Shown in pieces: positions 43,767-51,948 of a stretch of 64,000 nt of DNA. The translations under genes and the position numbers were made by a program. This DNA comes from an uncultured Anaerolineae bacterium (GTDB lineage Bacteria; Chloroflexota; Anaerolineae; JACIWP01): assembly GCA_938049385.1 (NCBI GenBank), contig CALIBQ010000009.1, forward strand, positions 1 to 64,000, given 5' to 3'. The notes under the pieces were generated by a model. It was not told the DNA's origin. It made no database searches and saw only the letters and a program-made list of their open reading frames with translations. Every line of letters starts with the position of its first letter. The first letter of the stretch is position 1.

Positions 43767-43857
43767 AAAAATTGTGAATATACGATGCCGAATGATGCTC
43801 CACCGGTCCCGCTGGGAGTGTATGTAAGCGTGCCCTGTTTGGCAAAGGTGGTGGGGA

Positions 43858-46193
43858 ATGAAAACCCGAGCGATCGTGATCGTGCTTGTTGTTGGGCTGG
43901 CAATGGCCCTGTTGGGCATTGCCGCCTACGGGATGACCTATCCGGATGCGCCGGCCCTGCCGGCCGGTCTCTCTCAGAAGACCCTGACCCCCTCATCCCG
44001 GTGGAAGAGAATGACTGGCATATTCTGAACCCCGCCGGCGGTGAACCGGACCAGGTCTCCTACAGCGTGTGCGGATGGGTGCTGACCCCCACCGAACCCT
44101 ATCAAGGCATCCAGGGAGCTACCGCCATCTTCTACGTCTGGGACGGCACGAGCTGGGTAGCGGTGGATTACGCCGTGTCCGCCGGCATCACCGGCTACTT
44201 TGTCCTGCGCTACAGCGGCCCGCCGGCGCTGGGCTTCGCCATCCGTGAGATCAATCCCCCCGGCTATACCTCCGTCAAGGCCGAGGGGCCGGCCGGCTGG
44301 GTGGTCGTGAACCCCGACCGCTTGGAGTATTTCGGCGATTACCCGGTGGGGTGTGTCTTCTTCTACGACCAGCCACCGACCACCGCCACGCCCACAGCCC
44401 AACCTACCCCGCGGCCGACTTCCACGCCAACCCCGACCGCTACCTTTGACGTAACGACCCTGATATTCCAAGGCAATGTCTATCGCGGGCCGGTGGGGCA
44501 CACCGCCTCCGGTATTTACGGTGTTACGGTGCAACTATGGGGTTCTACCTCACCGACATCCTTGGGAACACTGCTGGCCCGCACCAGCACCGGCACTGGC
44601 GGGGCGTACACGCTGGTGAGCAACCTGGGCTATCCCTATTACCATATCATCGAGGTTGACCCACTGGGCTATATATCGGTAGGCGCGGCTTCCGCCAGCG
44701 GCGGTGTGGTGGTCAACGCCAACTGGATCCGCCATCAGCCGACCGCTGGCGGCACGTATCCCGGCAACAACTTCTGGGACAACTATGTGGCGCCGACCCC
44801 CAGTCCCACCCCATCGGTCATGCCCCTTTTCTTCGCCGGCTACGTGGAGCTCGACCTGCCGAACCCGGTGGGCATCCCCGGTGCCGCGGTTACCCTCTAC
44901 GCCTTGAAGGACGGCGTCTGGCAGCCGGCGGACAGCACCCTGACGGATGAGTCGGGACACTTCGAACTGGCCTACCTGGGTGATCCGGCGGCTGGCTACG
45001 CCATCGTGGAGACCAACCTCCCCGGATACGTCTCAGTACGTGCCGAGGTGCCGGACCCCGCATGGGAAATCATCAGCCCGGACGAAGTGCGCACATACAG
45101 CCAGGAAAAAACCACTGGCTGTGTGTATTTCTTTGATATTTACGAAGGCCCCACGCCCACACCCACCAATACGGTAGTCTTCCCGCCGACCTCCACGCCT
45201 ACCCCGACCCCTACCCCGGTTTGCTGGGTGACGCACCTTGAGGCGGAACAGGGGAGCCTGGTCGCCCCGATGACCATCGGCGACCATCCCGAGGCGTCGG
45301 AATGCGATTATGTGTTCACCCCCAAGGGCTATGGGGCCAACGGCACGGTCTCTTTTAGGGTAGAGGTGCCGCAGACTGCCCAGTATGTTATTTGGGCGCG
45401 CGCATGGGGACCGGACTCTGCCAGCAACTCTTTCTATGTCTCGGTGGACGGCGCGCCGGAGGTACAGTGGGAGCTGCCACAGGCCGGCTGGACATGGGTC
45501 AAGGTCTCCAACGCGCTGACCAGTCAGCCGCTGGTGCTGACCTGGGGCGCCGGCACCCACACCATTGTCTTCCGCACCCGCGAGGACGGCTCCCGCCTGG
45601 ACGCGATCGAGGTGGCGGAAAATGACCCCGCTTGCCAGTGGCTGAACGTCATCCCCTGCCTGCCGCAAGCTACGCCAACACCAGAGGCCACCGCGACACC
45701 GACGGAGACACCGCCGGCCACCGCAACCCCGACGCCGACCGACACTGCCACCCCACCGCCTACGGCAACCGAGACACCCGTTCCCACGGAAACCGCTACC
45801 GCGACGCCGACGGAGACGTCCACCGCTACTTTCACGCCGGAGCCAACCCTTACCAGCACACCGACCGTCACTGGCACGCCGCCGGCGACCTTCACGCCGA
45901 CCGCCACGCCCACGGAGACGCCGGTGCCCACTGCGACGCCGACGGCTACAGTCCCGACGCCGACCCGCACGCATACACCGACCTTCACGCCGGCGCCTAC
46001 GGATACCCCGACGCGGCCAGCTACCGCTACCCGCACGGCAACACCCACCCGGGCTCCGACCCGCACCCCGACGCCGACGGCCACGCCCGTTCCGCCCGAG
46101 GAGATCCCGGAGGCCGGCACCTGGATGCTGATGGCCGGCGGGCTGGCAGGGTTGGCCAGCTACCTGCGGCTGGCTCGCCGCCGGCGCAGATGA
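43858..46193 (+). CDS. Large surface protein with PEP-CTERM-like sorting signal (frameshifted)
   Basis: Predicted substrate of the adjacent exosortase. ATG 43858 (site AAGGTGG) starts [20 protein letters not shown], a clear signal peptide, but that frame stops at 44026. The rest of the protein is in the -1 frame, open from at least 43785 to 46193. A missing base or slip, for example in the C-run 43988-43992, would join them. The body has three SdrD/Cna-B-like repeats (about 44060-44375, 44455-44790, 44825-45155), a CBM6/35-like module (about 45230-45630, ending RLDAIEVAE), a Thr/Pro stalk (45665-46095), and the C-terminus [20 protein letters not shown] followed by a basic cluster RRRRR. Reading from ATG 43785 instead would give no signal peptide. 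Confidence 0.82.
45665..46095 (+). repeat. Low-complexity Thr/Pro-coding stalk repeat
   Basis: About 430 bases of imperfect 6-base repeats (ACGCCGACG, ACACCGACC and similar) coding for TPTPT/TATPTE units in the surface protein. This looks like a cell-wall-spanning or O-glycosylated stalk between the ligand-binding modules and the C-terminal sorting signal. Confidence 0.8.
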
Positions 46194-46210
46194 TGGGACA
46201 AGGCTGTATG

Positions 46211-46247
46211 CTCCCGTCAGAGGCAACTCTGACGGGAGTTTTTATTT
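46211..46247 (+). terminator. Intrinsic terminator of the surface-protein gene
   Basis: CTCCCGTCAGAG, loop GCAA, CTCTGACGGGAG, then TTTTTATTT. It lies 17 bases after the stop and overlaps the 3' end of the convergent EpsI gene. Confidence 0.92.
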
Positions 46248-46922
46248 CGTCGGGCGAGAAGCGCGAGTGAAAATGGAGGAGACGAAGTCCTGCGCGATAT
46301 CCAGGGCTTCCTGGGGGGAGGTATCCTCGGCGGCGGCCGGCACGGTAACTTTGAAAAGCACCAGCCCGGCGGCCGGGTCGCGCCCTTCGTCCGGCCAGAG
46401 ATAGAAATACCAGACGAAATGGCGCTGGGAACCTTTGCCGGCGTCCAGGTAGAGGGCGTAAATGTCCCCGTCGCGGAGAGGAATGGGAGCGGCGCTCAAG
46501 GCTGTCTGCCAGCCGTCGGTGCTGTAGCAAATTTGCGGGGGATGGAAGCTCTTCGACTTGCGGCTCCCGATGAGGCTGAGCCAGAGGGTTCGGCCGGCGG
46601 AATCTTTATACCGGCGAAAGATATACTGTTCTGGCTCCAGCAGGATGAAGACCTCCAGGTTGGTCTGGGGGATATCCTGCCCTTTCCATGCGCCGATCTC
46701 CAGCGGCAGGTCGGCCAGGTTGGGTCCCAGGCGAAAATCATAGGGCGTTTCCACGATGCGCCACTGATCGGTCTGGCGCCAGTTATCAATGTCGGCCACG
46801 AAAGTGCGGGCAGAAGATGGGCGCAGGTTCGCCGGCCGGCGCGCCATAAGCACTGCGCTGGCCAGGATAGCGATGCCTAACAGGCCGGCAATGCTCAGAT
46901 ATCGGAGCGTATCCCGCGACAT
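46242..46922 (-). CDS. EpsI-family (exosortase-associated, DUF3485) protein
   Basis: A 226-residue protein with one N-terminal membrane anchor (IAGLLGIAILASAVLMARR). The EpsI/DUF3485 core follows: PLEIGAWKGQDIPQ, then SKSFHPPQICYSTDGWQTAL, the latter being the family signature (HPPxxCYxxxGW). In many species this domain is fused to, or encoded next to, exosortases. The gene overlaps the exosortase gene by 28 bases, so the two are translated together. Confidence 0.88.
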   Translation of the reverse strand: MSRDTLRYLSIAGLLGIAILASAVLMARRPANLRPSSARTFVADIDNWRQTDQWRIVETPYDFRLGPNLADLPLEIGAWKGQDIPQTNLEVFILLEPEQYIFRRYKDSAGRTLWLSLIGSRKSKSFHPPQICYSTDGWQTALSAAPIPLRDGDIYALYLDAGKGSQRHFVWYFYLWPDEGRDPAAGLVLFKVTVPAAAEDTSPQEALDIAQDFVSSIFTRASRPTK

Positions 46923-47728
46923 TGCGCCGCCCAGCTCACCCCCATTAAAAGAAGTACCGCCACCACGAAGAGCACGGGGCTGGAATAATCATGGAAATAG
47001 CGCAAGCCGGCCTCCGCCCCCCAGAGATGTGCCACCAACAGCAGAAGGGCGACGCGCACGATGTTGGCCGCCAGCGCCACCGGCACGGCCATAGCGAGCA
47101 GTACCCAGCGCGCCCATGCCGGCCCATCCACCAGGTAAACGAACAACGCAGTCAGCGTCAGCAGTGCTACGATGGAGCGCAGTCCACTGCAGGGTGCGCC
47201 CACCTGCAGGGAGCAGGACGGCAGGGTAATTTGTGCACCCTGCACCTGGGCGGGGATGCCCCACAGCCGCGCCAGGGCGGTGGATGCGGAAGCGGTGACG
47301 CTCTGCAGGGGCACACTAGCCTGTTCCACGAAGGGCAGGGGCGCGGCGAACCAGGTGAAGGCCAGGGGGAAAGCCAGCATACGCAGGGCCGGCACGCCTA
47401 GGAAAAAGGTTACCAGGCCGGCCACCAGGATAGGCAGGGAAAGGGCGGAGATATAGGGCGCGCGCCAGGCACTCCCGATGAGATGCGCCGCCAGACCGAT
47501 CCCCATCCCCAACAGTCCACGGTTGTCCGGCGACCGATACCAGAAGGCGCGCCGCCGGCGCCAGATCAGCACGCCGGCGATGATCAGCACCAGCGGCCCA
47601 TGGGTGTAATAGTCGTTGCTCCACCACTCGTGCGCCAACCAGCGCAGGGTCGGGAAATATAGAATGCCCACCAGCAGTGCCAGCGCCATCGCGGCAAACA
47701 GCCGGCGCTTGCGGATCAGTGTCCTCAT
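46895..47728 (-). CDS. Exosortase (PEP-CTERM-type transpeptidase)
   Basis: A 277-residue polytopic membrane protein with eight or so spans. The exosortase/archaeosortase catalytic residues are all present: Cys180 in GAPCSGLRSIVALL, Arg225 in ANIVRVALL and His246 in YFHDYSSPV. These cut sorting signals of the PEP-CTERM type and transfer the protein to a surface anchor. The only candidate substrate in the window is the convergent gene at 43858-46193, whose C-terminus is a PE-A-G-T-W variant of that signal. Confidence 0.92.
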   Translation of the reverse strand: MRTLIRKRRLFAAMALALLVGILYFPTLRWLAHEWWSNDYYTHGPLVLIIAGVLIWRRRRAFWYRSPDNRGLLGMGIGLAAHLIGSAWRAPYISALSLPILVAGLVTFFLGVPALRMLAFPLAFTWFAAPLPFVEQASVPLQSVTASASTALARLWGIPAQVQGAQITLPSCSLQVGAPCSGLRSIVALLTLTALFVYLVDGPAWARWVLLAMAVPVALAANIVRVALLLLVAHLWGAEAGLRYFHDYSSPVLFVVAVLLLMGVSWAAQCRGIRSDI

Positions 47729-49859: not shown

Positions 49860-49888
49860 TTGACGCCCTACCCGGCCGGCGATATACT
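49860..49888 (+). promoter_or_regulatory. Promoter of the FtsK-like operon
   Basis: TTGACG (49860-49865), 17 bases, TATACT (49883-49888). The LexA-type box begins four bases after the -10 element. Confidence 0.75.
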
Positions 49889-49891
49889 GTA

Positions 49892-49909
49892 ATAGAACAA
49901 ATGTTCTAT
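49892..49909. promoter_or_regulatory. LexA-type (SOS) box
   Basis: ATAGAACA-AA-TGTTCTAT, a perfect inverted repeat containing GAAC-N4-GTTC (49895-49906), the form used by Gram-positive-type LexA. It covers the predicted transcription start, so bound LexA would block initiation. It also contains an ATG (49901) in frame with the first gene, but ribosome-binding evidence favours ATG 49925. Confidence 0.8.
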
Positions 49910-49924
49910 CCGGAGGATTCCCAC

Positions 49925-51025
49925 ATGGCAGGCTCGGTCCAGCGAAGACTGCTGGAGATGCAGGCGGACCGCATTGAGATGGTGCTGGCCGCACACCAGG
50001 CCGCCGGCCGGGTCTGGGGAGGGGTCATCTCCCCGCGCGTCATCACCTTCCACCTCACGCCGCTGATGGGCACCCGCCTGCGCAAAATCACCCAACTCTC
50101 CGAGGAGATCGCCATGGCCTTGGGGGTTTCGTACTGCCGCATTTATCGGGAGGAGGGGACATTACGGGTGGAAATCCCACGGGAGGATGCGAAGCAGGTG
50201 TCACTGCTGGAACTGTGCCGGCAGGCCCGGCCGGCCGTTGCCGGCACCGCCATCCTGGGCGTCCAGAAGGACGGAAAGACCCTCATGGTGCGCCTGAGCA
50301 GTCCCGATGTGGTCCATATCCTGGTATCCGGCACGACCGGTTCGGGCAAAACCGAGCTACTGCGGGCCATTGTGGCGAGCATGGCGTATCTGCACCGCCA
50401 GAGCGAGTGCCAGATAGTGCTGGTGGACCCGAAGGGACGCGGCCTGCGGGTATTTGACGGCCTTCCGCATTTGCTGTATCCGCCGGCCAGCACCATTCCC
50501 GACGCGGCGGCGGTGCTGGTGGATGTCGTCATCGAGATGGAGCGCCGCGACCGACTAGGTATTGACCGGCCGGAGATCGTGGTGGTGGTGGATGAACTGG
50601 CTGACCTGCTCATGCAGGGAGGAGAAGAGGTGGAGCGGAGCTTGACCCGGCTGGTGCAGAGAGGGCGCGGCGCCGGCGTGCATGTCATTGCCGCGACGCA
50701 GAAACCCTCGGCCGAGGTCATCAGTTCCCTGCTCCGCAGTAACTTCCCCATGCGCATCGTCGGGCGGGTAGTGAACCCGGCAGATGCCTATCTGGCCGCC
50801 GGCGTGGGCGGCACCAATGCCGAACGCTTGATGGGGCGCGGGGACATGCTGGCGGTTCTGCAGGGGCAGGTCATCCGCTTCCAGGCGGCGCACATCCCGG
50901 AGCCGGCCATCCGCCACCTGGTGCAATGGTTGAAAAACCGCTATGCCGGCCGCGCCGTTCTGGACGTGCCAGCCATCTCCGACGCCGGTGACGTAATTCC
51001 GATAAATAGTGGAGGGATGCGATGA
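49925..51025 (+). CDS. Soluble FtsK/SpoIIIE-like DNA translocase, LexA-boxed
   Basis: A 366-residue motor protein. Residues about 30-90 resemble the FtsK alpha domain ([31 protein letters not shown]). The RecA-like motor follows with Walker A GTTGSGKT (136-143), [13 protein letters not shown], Walker [13 protein letters not shown] (218-229), [20 protein letters not shown] and [10 protein letters not shown]. There is no N-terminal membrane part and no gamma (KOPS-reading) winged helix, so it differs from cell-division FtsK. ATG 49925 has GGAGG at eight bases. It heads a four-gene operon under a LexA-type box, which points to a DNA-damage or element-transfer role. Confidence 0.88.
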
Positions 51026-51393
51026 AAAAGGTGGTGATGGCGCTGATAGGGGTCTTTATCCTGGCGCTCTGTATCACAGTTGCCAAACGCATGAGCAGTG
51101 ATGCGATGGCAGTGGTGGTGGGCATGGTCTGCGGTGTGGCCGCCAGCATTCCGACGAGCCTGCTCATGCTGTTACTGGCCCGGCGCGATGATGCGGAGAA
51201 CGCGCCGGCATCTCCTGGCCTGCCGCAGGTGCCCAACATCATGATCATAAATCCGCCGATGACCAATCCCGGTCTGTACTATCCGAACATGTCGGGCATG
51301 GCCTACCTGCCGCCGGCGGCATCGGGCGGCGCTCGCCAGTTCGAAATCCTGGGCGAGCCGGAGGACATTTCCGGACAGCGGCGGTATTTCTGA
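51022..51393 (+). CDS. Small membrane protein of the FtsK-like operon
   Basis: A 123-residue protein starting in a 4-base overlap (ATGA) with the FtsK-like gene. Two membrane segments are plain: VVMALIGVFILALCITVA (about 4-21) and AVVVGMVCGVAASIPTSLLM (about 29-48). The C-terminal half is a polar tail rich in Pro, Asn, Gly and Tyr (PNIMIINPPMTNPGLYYPNM). No family was recognised. It could anchor the soluble motor to the membrane, since FtsK-type motors normally have such a part in the same chain; that is inference. Confidence 0.75.
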   Translation: MKKVVMALIGVFILALCITVAKRMSSDAMAVVVGMVCGVAASIPTSLLMLLLARRDDAENAPASPGLPQVPNIMIINPPMTNPGLYYPNMSGMAYLPPAASGGARQFEILGEPEDISGQRRYF

Positions 51394-51728
51394 TGGGGAA
51401 ATGCGCCATGGCTTCACAGCATGCTCAGCAGGTGCAGTTGCTGGACTGGCGGCTGGGGTATTTCCCTGCCCGCTTCCGCTGGCGCGGGCAGGTGCATCAG
51501 GTGCTCCATGTCCAGCGTGTCTGGGAGGAATGCCGCGCTTGGCCCCGCCGGCGGCAGTTTCGCTGTTACCAACTGCTTTGCTCCGCCGGCCCATTCATCC
51601 TGCGGCATGATCTTTTGCACAACCTCTGGCAGGTGGTCAGTGCGCCGGCATGCAATGCCCATGCGCAGTGGGAGGATATGCCCCGAGGGAGGTCCTGGCA
51701 TGCGGGTCGGTTTGCTCTGGTTCGATAA
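51393..51728 (+). CDS. DUF6504-like small protein
   Basis: A 111-residue basic, Trp/Arg-rich protein sharing one base with the preceding stop (TGATG). The sequence LGYFPARFRWRGQVHQVLHV followed by QRVWEE and later PFILRHDLLHNLWQVV has the pattern of DUF6504-type proteins (P-x-x-F-x-W-R-G ... V ... W). Homologues in other bacteria have been noted near SOS polymerase genes. That comparison is from memory and not from a search. The start could also be ATG 51408. Confidence 0.6.
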   Translation: MGKCAMASQHAQQVQLLDWRLGYFPARFRWRGQVHQVLHVQRVWEECRAWPRRRQFRCYQLLCSAGPFILRHDLLHNLWQVVSAPACNAHAQWEDMPRGRSWHAGRFALVR

Positions 51729-51948
51729 TCGCTCGAATGCCCCACTGGAGGAGAAAATTCGGCAGGCCGCCGTGCGCTACCGGCAGAAGTTCGGCCGGCC
51801 GCCCAACTGCTGTTACGTGCATCCCGACACCCTGGCCGGCACCCCCAAAGAGTTTGTGCAGGTCAACGGCTTTGCAGTGCGGGTGATTCCTGTGAGGAAC
51901 GTCCTGCCCCATCACTTCTGGATCGGTTTTGAGGAAAATCCCCAGTAA
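51700..51948 (+). CDS. Small protein at the end of the FtsK-like operon
   Basis: An 82-residue product from ATG 51700 (site AGGGAGGT), overlapping the DUF6504-like gene by 29 bases. It begins MRVGLLWFDNRSNAPLEEKI and continues with RYRQKFGRPPNCCYVHPDTL, ending in VRNVLPHHFWIGFEE. The Cys-Cys-Tyr-x-His segment may bind metal. Nothing identifiable otherwise. Coupling, site and composition support a real gene. Confidence 0.72.
   Translation: MRVGLLWFDNRSNAPLEEKIRQAAVRYRQKFGRPPNCCYVHPDTLAGTPKEFVQVNGFAVRVIPVRNVLPHHFWIGFEENPQ

Follow-up and report, generated by a model that had tools for sequence, protein, structure and literature searches.

Organization of the locus

The stretch of uncultured Anaerolineae DNA analysed here (64,000 nucleotides, called the window below) contains a compact four-gene operon, preceded by a promoter and a LexA-type operator. 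The features are as follows.

49860-49888, + strand: sigma70-like promoter, TTGACG-17-TATACT, with 10 of 12 consensus positions matched
49893-49908, strand. (none given): LexA-type operator TAGAACAAATGTTCTA, a 16-bp palindrome over the expected transcription start
49925-51025, + strand: gene 1, FtsK-like motor, 366 aa, alpha domain and motor
51022-51393, + strand: gene 2, two-span membrane protein, 123 aa, with a proline-rich linker and the C-terminal peptide RQFEILGE
51393-51728, + strand: gene 3, DUF6504-like protein, 111 aa; the start could be 51408
51700-51948, + strand: gene 4, small WFD/CYVHP protein, 82 aa, one alpha/beta domain

The core of the operator, GAACAAATGTTC at 49895-49906, is an exact match to GAACN4GTTC, and the genes overlap by 4 bp (genes 1/2), 1 bp (genes 2/3) and 29 bp (genes 3/4). 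An earlier note on this DNA had described a GAAC-N4-GTTC dyad in front of four overlapping genes, and both parts of that description are confirmed. The distance from the promoter end to the box is 4 bp, and a GGAGG ribosome site is present in the leader. Reading by eye places an exonuclease III-like gene upstream of the operon and a DNA polymerase III delta-like gene downstream of it, each encoded on the opposite strand. No integrase or phage genes were recognised adjoining it. Elsewhere in the window, within the region 43785-47728, an 802-aa repeat protein with a PEP-CTERM-like tail is encoded, which adjoins exosortase-like and EpsI-like genes (opposite strand).

Compared with L039, the dN/dS values of genes 1-4 are 0.07, 0.14, 0.25 and 0.12, respectively, and the range against same-genus relatives is 0.25-0.32 for gene 3 and 0.12-0.15 for gene 4. 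All four genes are thus under purifying selection. The scenario of a decayed integrative relic, raised earlier as a possible refutation, is contradicted by these values and by the wide conservation described below, and we consider it ruled out, although the pair formed by genes 1 and 2 is also found in viral contigs.

The LexA-type operator

Taken by itself, the bare 12-mer box is weak evidence, because about 0.44 matches to GAACN4GTTC are expected by chance in the window. The longer form AGAACN4GTTCT was counted by pattern search over the whole 3.37 Mb genome, where it occurs 5 times, compared to 0 for the reversed control. The only convincing lexA of the genome has a box of the same type, ACTAGAACAGATGTTCATG, at its own promoter. 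For recA (C25:30354, L133), no exact GAACN4GTTC was found within 300 bp upstream.

What we regard as decisive, beyond chance, is the conservation of the box over the 57 loci examined for the FtsK-like family. It is present at most 1500 bp upstream in 51 of them, 30 of these having it within ca 260 bp, while the background rate in the remaining DNA of the same loci is 0.012 per 1500 bp; in the other six, no exact box is found over that distance. At least two boxes are found in 23 of the 57 loci, and the 78 boxes of the family give the consensus tAGAACRnnYGTTCTa. The same two promoter hexamers (-35/-10) are found in many relatives with the box between them or directly behind them; many have it in the interval from TTGACA to TATAAT, or have two boxes spaced ca 27-35 bp apart. 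Furthermore, one or two lexA-type genes lie alongside in 21 of the 57 loci, and the boxes in front of these genes have their core in common with those of the FtsK-like operons. With the box in 51 loci and a lexA-type gene beside 21, the proposal of an SOS operon is far stronger than it could be from the window alone, and LexA control, as predicted from the operator, is close to certain.

Other boxes of this type were found in the same genome. A near-identical one, TATAGAACAAATGTTCTAATC at C57:19037 (L011 position 2038), precedes the gene of a 61-aa ribbon-helix-helix-like protein (MNRHSEQHWV...), which is likely a second SOS target. The box AGAACATCAGTTCT at C23:15013 (L017 position 2015; L068 position 7015) is located ca 70 bp ahead of what, read by eye, is a terminase-like gene with a portal-like gene behind it; this phage head module is possibly under direct LexA control. 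The box AGAACGCATGTTCT at C38:94442 (L069) lies ca 400 bp before an hrcA-grpE-dnaK-like cluster. A weak LexA-domain match at C38:93861 was considered as a second LexA and dropped; it sits in an HrcA-like frame.

The FtsK-like motor

The product of gene 1 scores 39.3 bits against FtsK_alpha (PF17854, Pfam cut-off 22.9) and 109.7 bits against FtsK_SpoIIIE (PF01580, cut-off 24), with the alpha domain preceding the motor and with both Walker A (GTTGSGKT) and Walker B intact. It belongs to the FtsK/SpoIIIE motor family. There is no match to the gamma domain among the listed Pfam matches, and the chain stops ca 25 residues past the last motor helix, this end being disordered in the predicted model. 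The membrane N-domain is also absent; the protein begins at the alpha domain, and the spans sit in the next gene. Gene 1 is therefore not a full-length FtsK orthologue, and the earlier description of an alpha domain and a motor that lack the membrane and gamma parts proves correct. Compared to Pseudomonas FtsK, some 45 residues before the Walker B strand are missing in addition to the gamma domain.

The predicted model (pLDDT 85.5) has its best PDB match in 6t8b, an FtsK motor on dsDNA (Z 39.6, 337 residues, 2.5 Å). One alternative to be weighed here is a DNA export or transfer motor, like TcpA or Streptomyces TraB, that would act from cell to cell after damage. TcpA (6o1x) does align with the model, at Z 28.4, but TcpA and EccC range between Z 27 and 29 and the FtsK motors thus align much better; the plasmid_TraB family model gives 32.6 bits, which is far under its cut-off of 800, and no relaxase, secretion or conjugation genes were recognised beside the operon. 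We find this alternative very improbable, and segregation or clearing of DNA is the better guess. Concerning membership in a defence system, the only PADLOC matches are with larger or other proteins, and they cover just the motor part of these.

Relatives of gene 1 (P0001), counted at E <= 1e-55, occur in 193 of the 396 sampled genomes of the class, and in 101 of the 234 good ones. The nearest named relative is from an 'Anaerolineae bacterium' MAG, with 93% identity. The genome of the window encodes two full-length FtsK besides gene 1, and the tree separates these from a single clade (100% SH-aLRT, branch 1.12) made up of the host copies and a set of viral copies. The longest branch of the FtsK-like tree belongs to the single diverged copy lacking a membrane gene, that of L056 (G144), in which the Walker B glutamate is lost (DH for DE).

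The membrane partner

We now consider gene 2, whose C-terminal stretch is ARQFEILGEPED. Hydropathy gives exactly two spans in 65 of 66 membrane-protein sequences. The tail that follows the spans is 51-134 residues long and contains 15% proline in these 66 sequences, and in 61 of them the pattern R-x-[FYW]-x-[VILM]-x-G is found within the last 50 residues, compared to 0.3 for shuffled tails. Tethered docking motifs usually look like this, with a fixed peptide at the end of a variable linker. The even number of spans and the flanking positive charges would place the tail on the cytoplasmic side.

The membrane-protein gene is present in 198 of the 396 genomes, 178 of which also have the FtsK-like gene (Fisher p ~6e-69). 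In 55 of the 57 loci the two genes form a same-strand pair, with a median gap of 50 bp, and no fusion of the two (Rosetta stone) occurs among the loci. Seven loci with a membrane-gene match and no FtsK-like neighbour were read; six of these lie at a contig edge, where three keep a cut FtsK-like piece, and the seventh, L265, genuinely has no FtsK-like gene at that place. Neighbourhood conservation, which had been suggested as a check, is seen both for the box (51/57) and for this pairing (55/57). The idea that the membrane protein supplies the anchor gains indirect support from the near-obligate pairing and from the conserved tail peptide. The protein is likely to tether the motor, and the peptide would dock on it, although the tail could bind a different partner instead.

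Small membrane proteins under LexA control are often division inhibitors, as in the case of YneA and SosA (PMC13396833, PMC6851548), and one can envisage that the two-span protein plays the YneA/SosA/SidA role in this lineage, with the FtsK-like protein as its helper or target. The membrane gene is indeed near lexA-type genes in many loci, and L265 (G310 contig 13) has a LexA-boxed lexA-like gene with the membrane gene directly after it and the FtsK-like gene absent; another full copy is present in that genome. On the other hand, the membrane protein is near-obligately paired with an ATPase motor, it has two spans, a long tail and a conserved end peptide, and the same pair is found in viral contigs without the SOS box. 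We therefore judge a division inhibitor to be unlikely, and retain the tethered motor as the preferred reading.

Optional members of the operon

The protein encoded by gene 3 reaches 19.7 bits against DUF6504 (PF20114), under the cut-off of 24.2, while three orthologues score 24.9, 28.2 and 36.3 bits. The resemblance to DUF6504 noted previously is a weak match in the window protein itself, whereas the orthologues are above the cut-off. No DUF6504 relatives were found among the viral contigs or among the plasmids. A connection of DUF6504 to the ImuB/DnaE2 mutasome was considered and dropped; none of the operons showed a recognisable polymerase gene. Gene 4 contains LWFD and CYVHP stretches, and the CYVH part of the CCYVH motif pointed out earlier is largely conserved among relatives. 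Its predicted model has a pLDDT of 86, but a fold assignment was abandoned, as the matches are weak (best Z 5.7, capsid and chorismate mutase folds) and not interpretable. Both genes are optional, the DUF6504-like one being present in 20 of the 57 loci and the WFD one in 17.

The operon of some relatives opens with a second LexA-like gene and a gene for an eight-cysteine protein. In the second LexA-like proteins (L137, L171, L172, L040, L041, L048, L049) the Ala-Gly cleavage site is replaced by Ala-Ser, and their self-cleavage may differ. The eight-cysteine protein, of ca 145 aa, is encoded just before the FtsK-like gene in L134, L135, L137, L141, L149, L151, L153, L168, L169 and L055. It matches no Pfam or NCBIfam family and was found in 20 of 199 genomes, but not in that of the window; within the SOS operon it may be a metal or Fe-S protein.

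Viral and element copies

The FtsK-like gene is also present in the IMG/VR contigs L174-L187 (36-50% identity), accompanied by the membrane gene in 12 of the 14, which means that the pair is a portable unit. Within the stretch examined, the box is found in 2 of these 14 copies, compared to 51 of the 57 chromosomal loci. LexA control is thus a feature of the chromosomal form of the pair, and since the viral pair is mostly box-free, its basic job is not tied to SOS. In L175, L177, L178 and L183 the viral FtsK-like proteins have a helical-looking C-terminal segment, perhaps a DNA-reading domain, that the host copies lack. The phage and plasmid collections contain only relatives of ca 30% identity, which is generic for FtsK motors. 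Element-like genes are grouped on one short contig of the window's own genome, C64 (L073); among them are a WFD relative, an HNH-like gene and a different FtsK-like gene.

These copies raise the option of a module derived from a phage or another element, with a function in segregation, exclusion or host take-over, which in hosts has come under LexA control and acts against or for mobile DNA instead of caring for the chromosome. The occurrence of the FtsK-like gene and, mostly, the membrane gene in the viral contigs points in this direction, as do the ParA-like genes in L180, L183 and L184 and the WFD relatives in the viral contigs L254-L257 and the element-like L073; a terminase gene is found in L185. 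However, no integrase or structural genes were recognised beside the host copies read, the host copies are widespread and under purifying selection, the direction of transfer is not settled by the tree, and some of the viral contigs may be misassigned. An element-derived module is in our opinion quite doubtful.

Proposed mechanism

The reading that we favour, and hold to be fairly probable, is that of an SOS operon supplying a two-protein, membrane-tethered FtsK-type dsDNA translocase. LexA bound at the promoter would keep the operon off, and upon damage its cleavage would allow transcription, as the conserved promoter-overlapping boxes suggest. The FtsK-like protein would form a hexameric motor on dsDNA, judging from its domains, Walker motifs and predicted fold, and would be held by the two-span protein through the RxFxVIGE-type C-terminal peptide on its flexible linker. 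Because the gamma domain is absent, KOPS-like polarity signals would not be read, and the motor may pump whatever DNA is at the membrane. We infer that the cellular job is clearing or segregating DNA; the most likely task would be to handle unsegregated or damaged chromosomes at closing septa, the septal part in particular being suggested by analogy. The two full-length FtsK of the genome would cover the routine work, and the DUF6504-like and WFD proteins would be optional accessories.

A more specific formulation, for and against which we see about equal grounds, is a split FtsK: an SOS-only, gamma-less pump in which a soluble alpha-plus-motor protein is captured by the RxFxVIGE-type peptide of a separate membrane hairpin, and which is shared between chromosomes and phages. 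This formulation includes that the chromosomal form is LexA-controlled and the phage or phage-plasmid form mostly not, and that some relatives co-encode the second LexA-like repressor and the eight-cysteine protein.

No description of the operon was found in the open-licence literature. The individual parts are of known kinds (an SOS operon, an FtsK motor, a membrane adaptor); what is new is the way in which they are combined, along with the split architecture, the tail peptide and the fact that viral contigs share the pair. Little of the SOS response has been charted outside model bacteria. If the proposal is true, an emergency DNA pump with a detachable membrane anchor is maintained separately in cells, which would offer a direct test of how an FtsK motor acts without polarity signals. 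The conserved tail peptide, being short, lends itself to testing as an interaction motif.

Comparison with known systems

The motor fold of gene 1 is shared with TcpA of pCW3 and EccC of type VII secretion, but these work in conjugation or secretion contexts and have different flanking domains, and no such neighbours were recognised at the operon. YneA, SosA and SidA are, like the gene 2 product, small membrane proteins; theirs are SOS-induced and gene 2 is predicted to be so. They differ in having no FtsK-type motor in the same operon and a tail that is built differently.

Closer precedents exist for the operon as a whole, and they make its proposed reading plausible. The E. coli ftsK/dinH gene is SOS-induced (PMC4080785), and Streptomyces has a small membrane protein, SmeA, that directs the FtsK-like SffA to septa (PMC9380542); the smeA gene of S. 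venezuelae is a LexA target (PMC4255298). E. coli FtsK has the alpha and motor domains and an SOS-regulated promoter in common with gene 1. It is, however, a single polypeptide with a membrane N-domain, a linker and a gamma domain, whereas the operon encodes a short extra paralogue without gamma, the membrane part being in a second gene. The likeness to SmeA-SffA considered here is one of arrangement: a small membrane protein gene lies beside an FtsK-like gene, here in 55 of 57 loci. Unlike the operon, smeA and sffA are sporulation genes that are down-regulated by mitomycin C, and their occurrence is limited to streptomycetes and a few relatives. According to the published work (PMC9380542, PMC4255298), it is not known what exactly SmeA and SffA do, and the analogy therefore fixes no function. 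The best reading is that the operon pair works like SmeA-SffA or E. coli ftsK/dinH, on a separate branch.
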